A stretch of 64,000 bases of DNA, from assembly GCF_003073135.1 (NCBI RefSeq), contig NZ_PGDQ01000015.1, positions 1 through 64,000 of the forward strand. The letters are read 5' to 3'. Source of the stretch: Euzebya rosea (GTDB lineage Bacteria > Actinomycetota > Nitriliruptoria > Euzebyales > Euzebyaceae). Made by a program: the position numbers and the translations under genes. This document shows, in pieces, positions 31,150 through 37,000 of this stretch. The stretch's first letter is position 1. Every line of letters starts with the position of its first letter. The notes below the pieces were generated by a model. That model was given only the letters and a program-made list of their open reading frames with translations, was not told where the DNA came from and made no database searches.

Positions 31150-32424
31150 GTGAGCGGGCCCCTGCCGCCCCATCTGCTGCCCGACAACGCCACCGTCGGT
31201 GATGCCGGACAGCTCGTCATCGGCGGCTGCGACACCCTCGAGCTGGCCGCGGCGTTCGGCACGCCGCTGTTCGTCTACGACGAGGACCACCTGCGGGCCC
31301 GTGCCCGCGAGGCGGTCGCGGCGTTCGGCGACCACGCCACCTACGCCTCCAAGGCGTTCCTGTGCCGGGCGATGGCCCGCCTCGTGCACGAGGAGGGCAT
31401 GTCCATCGACGTCGCCACCGGCGGGGAGATGGCGGTCGCGCTGGCCGCCGACGTGCCGGCGGACCGCCTGCACCTGCACGGCAACAACAAGTCCACCGCC
31501 GAGCTGCGCGACGCCATGGAGGCCGGGGTCGGACGGATCATCGTCGACTCCACCGACGAGATGGACCGCATCGAGGCGCTGGTCGCCGACGGGGCCCCGG
31601 CCCCGCGGGTCCTCCTGCGCGTCACCCCGGGCGTGAAGGCCGAGACCCACGAGTTCATCGCCACCGGCCAGGACGACTCCAAGTTCGGCTTCACCGTCGC
31701 CACCGGCGTCGCGCTGGACGCGGTCCGGCGTGCCGAGGCCAGCGACGCGATGGACCTGGTCGGCATCCACTGCCACATCGGGTCGCAGGTCTTCGAGGCC
31801 GAGTCCTTCGCCAAGGCGCTGGGGGTCCTCGCGACCTTCACCGCCCCGCTGGACCTGCCCGAGCTGGTCATCGGCGGCGGGCTGGGGGTGCCCTACGTGA
31901 CCGGCGAGCACGCGCCCAGCATCACCGAGTGGGCCGCCGAGCTGACCTCGGCCGCGGCGTCCCTGGGCATCACGGCGACCCTCGGCATCGAGCCGGGCCG
32001 CGCCATCGCCGCCGCCGCTGCGGTCACCCTCTACACCGTCGGCACCGTCAAGCCGTTGGAGGGGATCCGGACCTACGTCGCCGTCGACGGCGGCATGAGC
32101 GACAACCCCCGCCCGGTGCTGTACGGCAGCGGCTACGAGACCTTCCTCCCGCGTGCGGTCGAGGCGGCACGGCCCCAGCGGGTGCGGGTGGTCGGCAAGC
32201 ACTGCGAGTCCGGCGACATCCTCGTCCGCGACGCACGGGTGCCCGCCGACCTCGCCGTCGGGGACGTGCTCGCCACGCCGGTCACCGGTGCCTACGGCCA
32301 CTCGATGGGCTCCAACTACAACAAGGTCCTGCGCCCGCCGGTGGTCTTCGTCCGCGACGGCGACGCCCGCCTGGTGGTCCGGCGGGAGACCCCCGCCGAC
32401 CTGCTCCTGACCGACGTCGGGTGA
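31150..32424 (+). CDS. lysA: Diaminopimelate decarboxylase
   Basis: 424 residues, a PLP enzyme making lysine from meso-diaminopimelate. PLP lysine lies in TYASKAFLCRAM (about 62-73), HGNNKS at 113-118, the glycine loop in VIGGGLGVPY, and the substrate motif CESGDIL near 352-358, with the C-terminal YGHSMGSNYNKVLRPP. The GTG start at 31150 is 31 bp after argS. It is probably in one operon with hom. Confidence 0.97.
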   Translation: MSGPLPPHLLPDNATVGDAGQLVIGGCDTLELAAAFGTPLFVYDEDHLRARAREAVAAFGDHATYASKAFLCRAMARLVHEEGMSIDVATGGEMAVALAADVPADRLHLHGNNKSTAELRDAMEAGVGRIIVDSTDEMDRIEALVADGAPAPRVLLRVTPGVKAETHEFIATGQDDSKFGFTVATGVALDAVRRAEASDAMDLVGIHCHIGSQVFEAESFAKALGVLATFTAPLDLPELVIGGGLGVPYVTGEHAPSITEWAAELTSAAASLGITATLGIEPGRAIAAAAAVTLYTVGTVKPLEGIRTYVAVDGGMSDNPRPVLYGSGYETFLPRAVEAARPQRVRVVGKHCESGDILVRDARVPADLAVGDVLATPVTGAYGHSMGSNYNKVLRPPVVFVRDGDARLVVRRETPADLLLTDVG

Positions 32425-32432
32425 TCGCGACG

Positions 32433-32438
32433 TAGCAT
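32433..32438 (+). promoter_or_regulatory. -10 box of hom
   Basis: TAGCAT stands 8 bases before the ATG at 32447, in the short lysA-hom gap. Confidence 0.4.
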
Positions 32439-32446
32439 CTGGCCGC

Positions 32447-33751
32447 ATGGCACACGATCCGTCCCAGCCCCAGCGCACCCTGACCGTCGGCCTGCTCGGC
32501 CTCGGCGTCGTCGGAAGCGGCGTCGCGACCCTGCTTCGCGATCACGCCGACGAGATCGCCGGCCGCGTCGGCGCGCGGCTGGAGATCGGACCGGTCGTCG
32601 TCCGTGACGTCAACAAGGTGCGGGACGTCGACGTGGCCGTGACCGACGACGTGTCCACCGTCGTCGGCGCCGAGGGCGTCGACATCGTCGTGGAGGTCAT
32701 GGGCGGCATCGACCCGGCCCGCGACCTGCTGACCCGCGCGCTGAAGGCCGGCCAGAGCGTGGTGACGGCCAACAAGGAGCTCATCGCCACCCACGGCGCC
32801 GAGCTGCTGACCGCCGCGCAGGAGCACTCCGTCCGCCTGGAGTACGAAGCGGCCGTCGCCGGCGCCATCCCGATCATCAAGCCGATGCGCGAGTCGCTGG
32901 CCGGCGACCGGGTCCGCAAGGTGCTGGGCATCCTCAACGGCACCACGAACTACATCCTCACCCGCATGACCGAGGAGGGTGCGGAGCTCGCGCCCGTCCT
33001 GGCCGACGCCCAGGCGCTGGGCTACGCCGAGGCCGACCCGACCGCCGACGTCGGCGGGCACGACGCCGCTGCCAAGGCCGCGATCCTGGCCAGCCTCGCC
33101 TTCGACGCCCACGTCGTCCGCGACGACGTCTACACCGAGGGGATCATGTCGGTCACCGCCACCGACATCGCCAACGCCAAGCGCATGGGCTACGTCATCA
33201 AGCTGCTCGGCATCGCCGAGGAGCACGACGACTCCAGCATCGGCGTGCGCGTCCACCCGGCGTGGATCCCCACCTCGCACCCGCTGGCGTCCATCCGCGA
33301 GGCGTACAACGCCATCTTCGTGGAGGCCGACGCCGCCGGGGACCTGATGTTCTACGGCCGTGGTGCAGGGTCGTTGCCGACCGCCTCGGCCGTCGTCGGT
33401 GACGTCGTCACGGCCGCCCGGGCCATGCTGGCGGGGGAGCGGTTGCCGTCGGTCGCCGTGGCCGACAAGCCGATCCGTCCCGTCGACGAGGAGATCGTGC
33501 AGTACTACCTGCTGCTCGACGTGGCCGACGAGGCCGGGGTCCTGTCCCGCGTGGCGGCGACCTTCGGGGACCACGACGTGTCGATCAAGAGCGTCTGGCA
33601 GGAAGGGGAGGGGGATCAGGCCCAGCTGCTGCTGATCACCCACGCCGCGCGCGAGGGCAACGTCAGGGCGTGCGTGGAGGCCCTGAAGGACCTCAGCGAC
33701 GTCAACGCGATCGCGTCGTCGATGCGCGTGGAGGACCGGCGCGAGGGCTGA
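32447..33751 (+). CDS. hom: Homoserine dehydrogenase
   Basis: 434 residues. The N-terminal NAD(P) domain has GLLGLGVVGSGV (about 11-22). The catalytic domain has VTANKELIATHG, YEAAVAGAIPIIKPMRESLAGD (the family signature) and LNGTTNYILTRM with the catalytic lysine region. The C-terminal ACT domain (QYYLLLDVADEAGVLSRVAATFGDHDVSIKSVWQ, about 350-380) is the usual threonine-feedback site. The enzyme sits at the methionine/threonine branch after lysA. Confidence 0.97.
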   Translation: MAHDPSQPQRTLTVGLLGLGVVGSGVATLLRDHADEIAGRVGARLEIGPVVVRDVNKVRDVDVAVTDDVSTVVGAEGVDIVVEVMGGIDPARDLLTRALKAGQSVVTANKELIATHGAELLTAAQEHSVRLEYEAAVAGAIPIIKPMRESLAGDRVRKVLGILNGTTNYILTRMTEEGAELAPVLADAQALGYAEADPTADVGGHDAAAKAAILASLAFDAHVVRDDVYTEGIMSVTATDIANAKRMGYVIKLLGIAEEHDDSSIGVRVHPAWIPTSHPLASIREAYNAIFVEADAAGDLMFYGRGAGSLPTASAVVGDVVTAARAMLAGERLPSVAVADKPIRPVDEEIVQYYLLLDVADEAGVLSRVAATFGDHDVSIKSVWQEGEGDQAQLLLITHAAREGNVRACVEALKDLSDVNAIASSMRVEDRREG

Positions 33752-33832
33752 TCGCCCCGGGCAGCACCACAGCCGGCGTCCCTGACGGGCTGCCGCACGA
33801 GGCCCCTTGGAGGGGCGGGACGAGGAGCGAGC

Positions 33833-34807
33833 GTGACCGAAGCCGATCACACCGTTGCGATGGTGGCCGACACCGTCAGGGCCGTCGACCTCGACGCAGA
33901 CCTGGACGGTCGGTCGGTGGTCGCGGCGGTCGAGGTCCCTGCGACGTCGGCCAACCTCGGTCCCGGCTACGACGCGCTCGGCGTGGCCCTCGACGTCCCG
34001 CTGCTCGCCATCGCCAGGGCGCCGGGACCGGAGCGGGTCACCTCCCACGGCCTCGGTGCCGGCGAGCTGCCGACCGGTGAGGGCAACCTCGTCTGGCGGG
34101 CCGTCGTCGCCTGGTGCGAGCGGGTCGGGGCCGACGTGCCCGACGTCTCGATCGACGTGCACAGCGCCATCCCGCTGGAACGCGGGATGGGGTCCTCGTC
34201 GGCCGCGGCGGTGGCCGGCCTGGTGCTGGCCCGCGCGCTGGTCGGCGGCCCGGGTGGCAACGCCGACGTGCTCGAGCTGGCCACGGCCCTGGAGGGGCAC
34301 CCCGACAACGCGGCGGCGGCGATCGCCGGTGGCCTGGTCGCATGCCTGCCCGACGGCGGGTTCCAGCGGGTCACCCCGGACACGGGCCTCATCCCGGTGC
34401 TGCTGATCCCCACGACACGCCAGAACACCGGCCACGCCAGGGGAGTGCTGCCCGTCGAGGTCCCCCTCGCCGTCGCCGCGGCCAACGGTGCCCGGGCGGT
34501 CGCGACCTTCGCCGGCCTCGCCGGCCTGGTCCCGCTGCAGGCCGCCGCCATGGTCGACGAGCTGCACGAGCCCCCTCGCCTGGCGATCATGACCACCAGC
34601 GGCCAGCTGGTCGGCCGACTCCGCGAGGCCGGCGTGCCGGCGGCTCTGTCGGGGGCGGGCCCGTCGGTGCTGGCGGTGCTGGACCACCCCTCCCAGCTCC
34701 GGGTCGTGGCCGACGCCGTCGACGCCGTCGACGGCGCCGTGGAGGTCCTCGAGACCACCTGGAACCTGGCCGGCGCCCGCGTGCACCGAGCCCCCGTGCC
34801 GGCCTGA
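33833..34807 (+). CDS. thrB: Homoserine kinase
   Basis: 324 residues, GHMP-kinase fold. It shows VEVPATSANLGPGYDALGVALD (about 28-49) and the ATP loop PLERGMGSSSAAAVAGLVLA (about 113-132), plus the C-terminal SGAGPSVLAV. It makes the O-phosphohomoserine used by the thrC product encoded near the left end. The GTG at 33833 follows GAGGAGCGAGC. It lies directly upstream of rho. Confidence 0.95.
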   Translation: MTEADHTVAMVADTVRAVDLDADLDGRSVVAAVEVPATSANLGPGYDALGVALDVPLLAIARAPGPERVTSHGLGAGELPTGEGNLVWRAVVAWCERVGADVPDVSIDVHSAIPLERGMGSSSAAAVAGLVLARALVGGPGGNADVLELATALEGHPDNAAAAIAGGLVACLPDGGFQRVTPDTGLIPVLLIPTTRQNTGHARGVLPVEVPLAVAAANGARAVATFAGLAGLVPLQAAAMVDELHEPPRLAIMTTSGQLVGRLREAGVPAALSGAGPSVLAVLDHPSQLRVVADAVDAVDGAVEVLETTWNLAGARVHRAPVPA

Positions 34808-34823
34808 GCGCCGACGGGCAACC

Positions 34824-34853
34824 TTGTTGCCGTCCGTCGGTGACCGGTATGCT
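34824..34853 (+). promoter_or_regulatory. Vegetative promoter of rho
   Basis: TTGTTG (34824-34829), an 18-base spacer, and TATGCT (34848-34853). It is one of the best -35/-10 matches in the window and predicts a leader of about 165 bases. Confidence 0.75.
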
Positions 34854-34860
34854 TCCTTCA

Positions 34861-34962
34861 GCGGCGAGCCGGGACGCCGCACTCCAGCCACGCTGGATCG
34901 CCGAGGGTTCCCTCGCTCCGCACTTGTTCCCGACGACCATCTCGACCCGCATGCGCGGGTCG
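34861..34962 (+). promoter_or_regulatory. Structured rho leader with four hairpins
   Basis: Four hairpins follow one another: GCGGC/GCCGC (34861-34880), TCCAGC/GCTGGA (34883-34897), CGAGGG/CCCTCG (34902-34915) and CGACCCGC/GCGGGTCG with a 4-base loop (34943-34962). A spacer then leads to the ribosome-binding AGGAGAGGGC before the ATG at 35027. rho leaders are often sites of autoregulation; the mechanism here is unknown. Confidence 0.55.
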
Positions 34963-35026
34963 ACACGCCAATGGGGTGACGTGATCGAGACGTCCCCCAG
35001 TGCCTGAGAACCACACAGGAGAGGGC

Positions 35027-37000
35027 ATGGATCGCAGCGTCCTGGCTCGCAAGCCGATGACCGAGCTGAAGGACATCGCCTCGCATCTGAACATGCGTGG
35101 GTACCAGAAGCTTCGCAAGGCCGAGCTGATCGACGCGATCGTCGAGTCGGCCACCGGCCAGGCGTCCGCGTCCGCGAACGGTGCCGCCGAACCGGGGGAC
35201 GACGCCGCTCCTGCCCGCTCGCGCACCCGGACACGCAGTCGTGACGACGCGTCCGCTGACGCGCCCGCTGACGACGCGCCTGCTGATGATGCGCCTGCTG
35301 GTGACGCGCCGGTCGAGTCGGCGCCGGCGGGGGAGGACGCGGCAGCACGTGCTGCTCGGGAGGAGACGGCCCGCAAGGTGCTGCCCCCCACCGCCCGCCA
35401 GGCCGACGCCGCTGGGGACGGCGGTCAGGGCAAGGGCCAGCAGGAGGAGCGCAGCCGCTCCCGCGACCGCAACAGCTCGCGTGGTGGCAACCGCAACGAC
35501 GACAACGGCCGTTCCCGTGGCAGCGCGCAGGACAGTGGTCGTGATTCGGGCGGTCGTGATTCGGGCGGTCGTGACTCCGGTCAGGGTCGTGGGTCCGGTG
35601 GTCGTGACAGCGGTTCTGGCCGTGACAGCGGTGCTGGCCGTGACAGCGGTGGCAGTCGTGACAGCGGCGGTGGCAGTCGTGACGGCGGCAAGGGTGAGGA
35701 CCGGCCGCGTGACGGCGGGCGCAAGGACGACGACCGTGGTCGCGCCGACGCCCCTCGCGCCGACGACAACGGCAACGACGACGATGACGACGATGACGAC
35801 GACGCGGCGAGCCGCAAGCGTCGCAGCCGTCGGGACCGTCGCAAGCGCAACCGCGAGCGCGCCCAGCAGGAGAACCAGCAGGGCGGCGGCGGTGGCGGGG
35901 GCGGCAACGAACCCGGAGAGGTCCGCGCCGGTGTGCTCGACATCCTCCCCGAGGGGTACGGCTTCCTGCGCACGACCGGCTACACCCCGGGCGACCGCGA
36001 CGTCTACGTCTCGCAGGGCCAGATCCGCAAGCACGGGCTTCGTCGCGGCGACGTCGTCCAGGGGCCGATCCGCCAGCAGCGCAACAACGAGAAGGTCCCG
36101 GCGCTGCACCACGTGCAGAAGGTCAACGGCGGCGAGCTCGAGGGCGGACAGGTGCCCGAGCGGCCCGACTTCCGCGACCTCGTGCCGGTGTACCCCAGCG
36201 AGCAGCTGCGCCTGGAGACCGAGAAGGCCCCCACGGTCCTGCGTGCCATCGACCTGCTGGCCCCGATCGGACGCGGGCAGCGTGCCCTCCTCGTGGCACC
36301 GCCGGCAGCCGGTCGAACCGACACCCTCAAGGGCATCGGCCAGGCCATCGCGACCAACGCGCCCGAGGCCCACCTGATGGTCCTGCTGATCGACGAGCGT
36401 CCCGAGGACGTCACCGACGTCAAGCGCGCCATCCCCGGTGAGGTCATCGCGAGCACCTTCGACCGTCCGGTCGAGGACCACACGCAGGTCGCCGAGCTCG
36501 CCATGGAGCGGGCCCGCCGGCTGGTCGAGCTCGGCCACGACGTCGTCGTGCTCGTCGACTCGTTGACGCGGCTGACCCGCGCCTACGGCAGCGGCGGCAT
36601 CGATGCGACGTCGCTGTACCCGGCCAAGCGCTTCTTCGGCAGCGCCCGCAAGGTCGAGGACGGCGGCTCGCTGACGATCGTGGCCGCCATGCTGACCGGC
36701 GACGGAAGCGCGGTCGACGAGGCGATCCTCGAGGAGTTCCTCGGGACAGCGAACGCCGTCATCCACCTCGACGGCGACGTGGCCCCGCACCTGCGGCCGG
36801 TCGTGCGCCCCGACACCTCGGCCACTCGCCGCGAGGAGCTGCTCGTCGACGACGAGACCCTCCAGGCGATCTGGGCGGTTCGCAAGCGCCTGGCCGACCT
36901 GCCCCACGACGAGGCCGCGCGCACGATCGCCAGCGACCTCGAGGGCACCCTGGACAACGCCACCTACCTCGCCGGTGCCGGAGGTTCCAGCACACGGTGA
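35027..37000 (+). CDS. rho: Rho factor homologue with altered motor motifs
   Basis: 657 residues. The N-terminal Rho_N helices (RKPMTELKDIASHLNMRGYQKLRKAELIDAI, about 8-38) are followed by a low-complexity region of about 250 residues: acidic, then RDSGG repeats, poly-Asp, a basic patch (ASRKRRSRRDRRKRNRER) and poly-Gly. The cold-shock RNA-binding domain (GVLDILPEGYGFLRT, from about 302) and ATPase domain follow. The P-loop reads PPAAGRTDT where Rho has PPKAGKT: both lysines are gone (Ala427, Arg430). IDERPEDVTD (catalytic Glu), VLVDSLTR (Walker B) and the late SATRREEL Arg remain. The Q-loop is missing (AYGSGGID, 519-526) and the R-loop lysine is gone. AGGAGAGGGC precedes the ATG. Confidence 0.88.
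   Translation: MDRSVLARKPMTELKDIASHLNMRGYQKLRKAELIDAIVESATGQASASANGAAEPGDDAAPARSRTRTRSRDDASADAPADDAPADDAPAGDAPVESAPAGEDAAARAAREETARKVLPPTARQADAAGDGGQGKGQQEERSRSRDRNSSRGGNRNDDNGRSRGSAQDSGRDSGGRDSGGRDSGQGRGSGGRDSGSGRDSGAGRDSGGSRDSGGGSRDGGKGEDRPRDGGRKDDDRGRADAPRADDNGNDDDDDDDDDAASRKRRSRRDRRKRNRERAQQENQQGGGGGGGGNEPGEVRAGVLDILPEGYGFLRTTGYTPGDRDVYVSQGQIRKHGLRRGDVVQGPIRQQRNNEKVPALHHVQKVNGGELEGGQVPERPDFRDLVPVYPSEQLRLETEKAPTVLRAIDLLAPIGRGQRALLVAPPAAGRTDTLKGIGQAIATNAPEAHLMVLLIDERPEDVTDVKRAIPGEVIASTFDRPVEDHTQVAELAMERARRLVELGHDVVVLVDSLTRLTRAYGSGGIDATSLYPAKRFFGSARKVEDGGSLTIVAAMLTGDGSAVDEAILEEFLGTANAVIHLDGDVAPHLRPVVRPDTSATRREELLVDDETLQAIWAVRKRLADLPHDEAARTIASDLEGTLDNATYLAGAGGSSTR
35534..35700. repeat. RDSGG-encoding short repeats in rho
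   Basis: Many imperfect 12-18-bp units of the GGTCGTGATTCGGGC type encode RDSGG/RDSGS repeats in the disordered part of Rho (about residues 170-225). A later poly-Asp run is encoded by GAC/GAT codons around 35776-35805. Confidence 0.85.

Follow-up and report, generated by a model that had tools for sequence, protein, structure and literature searches.

A single-copy actinobacterial Rho that has lost the P-loop lysines and the Q-loop and has kept its RNA-binding domain

The window, that is, the whole stretch of 64,000 nucleotides analysed here, carries a rho gene in a forward-strand open reading frame at 35000-37000, with an ATG start at 35027 and a product of 657 amino acids (Table 1). The source genome is a 5.5-Mb actinobacterial draft in 40 contigs, 97.6% complete. 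The gene is flanked by thrB on one side, and by a DUF1385-type gene and then prfA on the other (names given by reading of the open reading frames). The same neighbourhood (hom, thrB, rho, DUF1385, prfA) also surrounds rho in the other genomes of the family, which fits orthology of the gene. The product is made up, in order, of a Rho_N domain, a long insert rich in Arg, Gly and Asp, a cold-shock RNA-binding domain, and a RecA-like domain. The insert, which contains RDSGG repeats as well as the basic stretch RKRRSRRDRRKRNR, is the fast-evolving part in both sequence and length (77% identity, with gaps, to G003, a genome of the same genus), and the domains flanking it are nearly frozen in the same comparison.

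A preliminary description of this DNA had credited the gene with a good promoter. A strict sigma-70 scan upstream of rho found no promoter match, and an Rfam search of the same region found no leader. What stands of the claim is a candidate, TTGTTG-18-TATGCT, missed by the strict scan, that is kept in the aligned locus L059 and reads TTGTCG-18-TATGCT in L060. On the reverse strand, a 1541-aa open frame (window 32282-36907) lies antisense to hom, thrB and rho, and looks like a high-GC shadow frame.

Table 1. Features of the rho locus, in window coordinates; residue equivalents follow E. coli Rho numbering.
Feature	Coordinates	Strand	Remarks
Candidate promoter TTGTTG-18-TATGCT	34825..34854	+	Alignment conservation in G003 and G001; missed by strict scan
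rho orthologue with degenerate ATPase domain	35027..37000	+	657 aa; sole Rho of the genome
Rho_N domain, residues 1-45	35027..35161	+	98% identity to G003
Arg/Gly/Asp-rich insert, probably disordered (by composition)	35162..35920	+	RDSGG repeats; basic stretch
Cold-shock/OB RNA-binding domain (PF07497)	35921..36142	+	100% identity to G003
RecA-like ATPase domain	36143..36997	+	1 change in 284 residues vs G003; predicted Rho fold
P-loop PPAAGRTDT, residues 425-433	36299..36325	+	K181 replaced by A427, K184 by R430; T185 kept as T431
DERPEDV	36392..36412	+	E211 (catalytic Glu) and R212 (Arg valve) retained; D456-E457-R458 = D210/E211/R212
Walker B VVVLVDSLTRL	36542..36589	+	D265 kept as D511
Q-loop deletion site YG^SGGID	36584..36619	+	10 residues gone
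True R-loop segment TGDGSAVDEAI	36695..36727	+	K326 position = A562 (36710-36712)
VAPHLRPVV	36779..36805	+	One-residue gap, R353 lost; "R-loop" of the preliminary description
SATRREELL	36818..36844	+	Arginine finger R366 kept as R601 (alignment)

Alignment with the Rho proteins of E. coli and M. tuberculosis upheld the main changes proposed in the preliminary description. Both P-loop lysines are lost, and the Walker A signature GK[T/S] with K181 and K184 has become AAGRT. In the Q-loop, E. coli YNTVVPASGKVLTGGVD aligns with YG and SGGID of the window protein across a gap of 10 residues. The proposed change in the R-loop was correct as to the loss of K326, which sits in E. coli DTGSKMDEV and is aligned within TGDGSAVDEA, but the stretch quoted for it, HLDGDVAPHLRPVV, was misassigned: it corresponds to K352/R353 and lacks R353. 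Both elements of the secondary RNA site, the Q-loop and K326 of the R-loop, are absent. The change at K326 means little by itself, because the natural residue there in M. tuberculosis Rho is Thr, and that protein is a working motor (PMC8828861; PMC4499133). The features that had been described as kept (the cold-shock domain, the catalytic Glu, Walker B and a C-terminal Arg) are all present, together with the equivalent of R269; E211, D265 and R366 are thus found in the window protein, and not all of them in sister species. The primary RNA-binding residues L58, F64, R66, D78 and Y80 are kept, the E108/D position conforms, and the F62 position is Tyr, likewise in all canonical relatives. Within the ATPase domain of the window protein, 17 of 24 functional canonical-invariant residues are kept versus 76 of 98 others (Fisher p 0.59), and a selective loss at catalytic over other invariant sites was not seen in the family; losses are not concentrated at catalytic sites, and the domain has therefore changed broadly.

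An AlphaFold2 monomer model of the core, cold-shock domain included, had a pLDDT of 92.9 and a pTM of 0.92, from an alignment of 38 sequences that included canonical Rho, so that the fold is not independent proof. In Foldseek this model matched Rho of E. coli (8q3p, TM 0.95; 5jjl, 0.92) and of M. tuberculosis (7oqh, TM 0.91-0.93), and it superposes on E. coli Rho of pre-termination complexes (6xas, 6xav). The protein scores 429 bits with the NCBIfam equivalog TIGR00767, under the cut-off of 509.45, and 422.6 bits with the equivalog NF006886, over the cut-off of 315; since the latter accepts it, databases probably list an ordinary Rho, which hides the change in the motor. Taken as a whole, it resembles canonical Rho (7oqh; 1pv4, 3ice, 5jjl) in domain order, fold (TM 0.91-0.95), Walker B, E211, R212, R366 and the possession of an insert, as in actinobacteria, and differs from it in the absence of the P-loop lysines, the 10-residue Q-loop deletion, the loss of K326 and R353, and the score under the TIGR00767 cut-off.

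The family was represented by five genomes including that of the window, four of one genus and one of another, in which rho was found by a family model. Each contains one Rho, and all five are degenerate (271-428 bits). Outside the family, most members of the order and class carry canonical Rho, and the intact proteins of most other families score about 560-620 bits. The combination of K184, T/S185, E211, D265 and R366 is present in 39 of 41 canonical relatives and in 0 of the 5 family members. Sister species in the genus and family have lost further catalytic residues (E211 to A or C, G183 to D, D265 to H), and the RNA-binding domain is retained despite these extra losses. The P-loop region reads PPSADGTAV in G001, with DARPED, and PPEADGAAF in G002, with DCRPEA; G004 has VTKGALVTEM, DEAPEE and the change of D265 to H, and its profile match ends at position 343 of 415. 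Across the family, 98% of canonical-invariant residues are kept in the cold-shock domain, versus 66% in the ATPase domain. Scores with PF07497 are 94-101 in the family core proteins (98 in the window) versus 88.8 in the canonical G006, and scores with PF00006 go from 86 in G006 to 34-65 in the family (50.8 in the window). In the trees, the ATPase distance to G006 is 1.18, versus 0.08-0.17 for canonical members of the order, and the cold-shock distance is ordinary (0.74); in the family, long branches are seen for the ATPase domains and not for the cold-shock domains. The RNA-binding domain of the window protein groups with its own order, and the gene is an orthologue of rho by descent, as indicated by its single copy, the presence of Rho_N, PF07497 and RecA-like domains, and the neighbourhood shared by the family. 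A further family of this class also has partly degenerate Rho (L063 in G036, L064 in G051, and L051), with PPQAGTTTL in one of them and DARPEE in another.

Loss of motor motifs recurs elsewhere in the Actinomycetota. Among 54 Leucobacter genomes, 50 matched TIGR00767 below the cut-off, 2 above it, and 2 had no match. Both K184 and E211 are lost in 22 aligned species, with 98.4% of the cold-shock invariants kept. The aligned species can be arranged in a motif series that leads from GKT with DERPEE, through GPRESGKS, to LPARxxGxxV with NAQPEE or DAQPEE, and along which the RNA-binding segment DNYAFVRTSGYLPG.SDVYVS is almost constant. A pair with dead motifs (L054/L055) has a dN/dS of 0.049. No second Rho was found at E 1e-40 across the genus, nor in the 4 genomes searched deeper. 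Stepwise decay of the ATPase motifs was observed over Leucobacter G435-G482 (L053-L055, L057, L077, L078, L080, L082, L083, L222-L241), AQPEE or ARPEE repeatedly replacing DERPEE among these proteins. In a phylum-wide sample of 396 genomes, degenerate Rho with the Q-loop deleted in every listed member were found in the families f32 (6), f41 (9) and f72 (2) (L084-L100), as the sole Rho in the genomes checked. Those of f32 have a GRT P-loop, as in the window protein, and DERPEE in most cases; K184, R353 and R366 are absent (R366 in 6 of 6). Those of f41 keep K184 in 7 of 9 cases and lack D210/E211. All these degenerate proteins resemble that of the window in a recognisable RNA-binding domain and lost ATPase motifs, and those of f32, f41 and f72 in the Q-loop deletion as well, whereas dead Leucobacter Rho have lost the entire P-loop and DERPEE, and each lineage has lost different residues. 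From these differences, and from the canonical Rho of related genera, it follows that the motor motifs were, as far as sequences tell, lost independently across lineages. Since the cold-shock domain has also diverged in f41 and f32 (62-70% of invariants kept), the asymmetry between RNA-binding and ATPase parts is clearest in the family of the window and in Leucobacter.

Several Actinomycetota families, f18 among them, gave no Rho match. In the sampled f18 genomes (G085, G141, G197, G241 and others) no Rho was found and only weak F1-type ATPase matches were obtained; complete loss of Rho in this actinobacterial family is possible. One gene of the survey, L073 (G269:C3:511221-512441), has two TGA codons in frame and scores above the cut-off once joined to its neighbour, so that TGA reassignment or a broken gene is possible. 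A Thermoguttaceae genome has two Rho homologues (L056; G068:C138:45064-46203), both below the TIGR00767 cut-off, one of them with the P-loop PPQTGRTTLL.

Terminator signals were counted in 20-kb genome samples with rough gene calls. At convergent gene ends, the hairpin folding energy is -4.2 in three genomes of the genus versus -2.0 kcal/mol in canonical relatives (n=57/54, p 0.004), a value from the third of three analysis variants, the enlarged one, to which alone a statistical test was applied; stronger convergent-end hairpins in the genus are thus suggestive. No general link between degenerate Rho and convergent-end hairpin energy was found in f32, f41 and Leucobacter. The density of U-tract hairpins is slightly above canonical in degenerate-Rho genomes, with small numbers and differing GC, and U-tract hairpins at gene ends did not separate degenerate from canonical genomes. 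Coding purine content, proposed as a readout of Rho loss in Bacilli (PMC13323073), showed no clear difference between degenerate and canonical genomes (0.487-0.505).

A sequencing or assembly error, or a canonical second rho missing from the assembly, might be invoked for a draft of 40 contigs. The chance of this is vanishingly small, as G003, a two-contig assembly with a 5.8-Mb chromosome, also has one Rho with identical motifs, and the dS of 0.2-0.4 between the two rho gene clusters shows that the copies are independent, with no recent exchange; error is thereby ruled out. A search of the window's genome for a second rho, which the preliminary description had advised, found none, two other weak matches resembling F1/FliI-type ATPases. 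Neither an error nor pseudogene formation accounts for the window rho, and no frameshift or stop interrupts rho in any of the five family genomes. Another possibility is that the family can do without Rho function and that rho is drifting under relaxed constraint, its RNA-binding part lagging behind; we find this explanation improbable. It draws on the comparison of the window with G001 and G002, where the ATPase domain is about 48%/41% identical, with pairwise dN/dS of about 0.75-1.1 (cold-shock domain 92%/89%, prfA 83%/79%), on the early end of the profile match in G004, and on the families without Rho. For the clade of the window and G003, however, relaxed constraint is contradicted: the cold-shock domain is 100% identical at a dS of 0.32, and the ATPase domain 99.6% identical (1/284 residues changed) at a dS of 0.24, with a dN/dS of 0.007 (upper limit about 0.036), compared with 0.039 for prfA and 0.032 for hom. 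In this one close pair, the altered ATPase domain is under very strong purifying selection since the split from G003, which bears out the earlier claim that simple decay is not at work. The low dN/dS of the dead Leucobacter pair and the 89-100% identity of the cold-shock domain among genus members also speak against drift. The near-identity with G003 and the wide divergence from G001 and G002 suggest that the ATPase domain was rebuilt fast and later became fixed in form in the clade of the window and G003. Change may be continuing in G001, G002 and G004, where drift is possible.

A rewired, active Rho would hydrolyse ATP slowly by means of the kept residues and Arg430, its shortened loop moving RNA or releasing it allosterically, and would still terminate transcription. 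E211, R212, D265, R269, T185 and R366 do remain, Arg is a conservative replacement for the P-loop Lys, the ATPase domain is near-totally constrained relative to G003, the loss of K326 is tolerated by M. tuberculosis Rho, and f32 independently unites a GRT P-loop with DERPEE and the Q-loop deletion. Against this, both P-loop lysines and the Q-loop are gone together, K184, G183 or E211 are also lost in sister species, and R366 is absent in all six f32 proteins. We therefore consider such an enzyme unlikely, and the motor with different chemistry offered in the preliminary description is the less supported of its two options, because E211, G183 and D265 are lost in sister species whose RNA-binding domain is retained. 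Structures of pre-termination complexes are the basis of allosteric models of how Rho acts. An ATP-independent terminator of this kind would bind both RNA polymerase and the nascent transcript, inactivating the elongation complex without translocation; the preserved RNA-binding and Rho_N parts and the superposition on Rho in 6xas and 6xav are consistent with it. M. tuberculosis Rho, however, needs a hydrolysis-competent site to disrupt elongation complexes (PMC4499133), and this possibility appears highly improbable.

The window gene is thus best explained as a vertically inherited rho whose product is probably a non-translocating RNA-binding protein of Rho fold. The other option of the preliminary description, a motorless RNA-binding factor derived from Rho, is supported. 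In the species of the window itself, where the other catalytic residues are retained under constraint, residual ATP binding or weak hydrolysis is possible, and the strong constraint on the ATPase domain could equally mean real nucleotide-dependent activity. In a non-translocating Rho, the C-terminal domain would still form a complete or partial ring and might bind nucleotide without hydrolysis, as RecA with a Walker A Lys-to-Arg change does. RecA K72R has this conservative change in the same fold and binds nucleotide without turnover, but is a laboratory mutant and not a natural lineage. The cold-shock domains and the insert would grip RNA that is not pulled through the ring, and the protein would therefore clamp nascent or free RNA statically, protecting or chaperoning it or modulating RNA polymerase. 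If Rho termination is lost, other terminators must serve, and ordinary termination would fall chiefly to intrinsic (hairpin) terminators and to other factors. An unlikely extension of these results is that motorless Rho form a natural class, with several origins in the Actinomycetota, whose members still affect transcription by docking to RNA and to RNA polymerase with no translocation; if true, factor-dependent termination or antitermination would run without ATP hydrolysis.

About 90% of bacteria have Rho, which is essential in the high-GC Actinobacteria studied (PMC8828861; PMC13269538), and its ATPase residues have been described as highly conserved, divergent Rho included (PMC8828861). 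No report of a naturally motor-dead Rho was found in the literature searched, in which the 2024 survey of Rho diversity (Moreira et al., NAR gkae582) was covered through papers that cite it. As cited there, that survey is about atypical Rho with insertion domains, which resemble the window protein in a disordered N-terminal insert, and it may mention motor-dead forms as well. A genus whose only Rho, under strong selection, has neither the P-loop lysines nor the translocating loop represents a natural experiment in the separation of RNA binding from the motor, and Leucobacter and other families offer parallels. It thereby becomes possible to test directly whether Rho can work through contact rather than translocation, a question of long standing. 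The pocket of bicyclomycin includes the P-loop lysine, and the drug is predicted to be without a target in the window's genus. Finally, judged by annotated names, Rho-dependent termination seems more widespread than it is.
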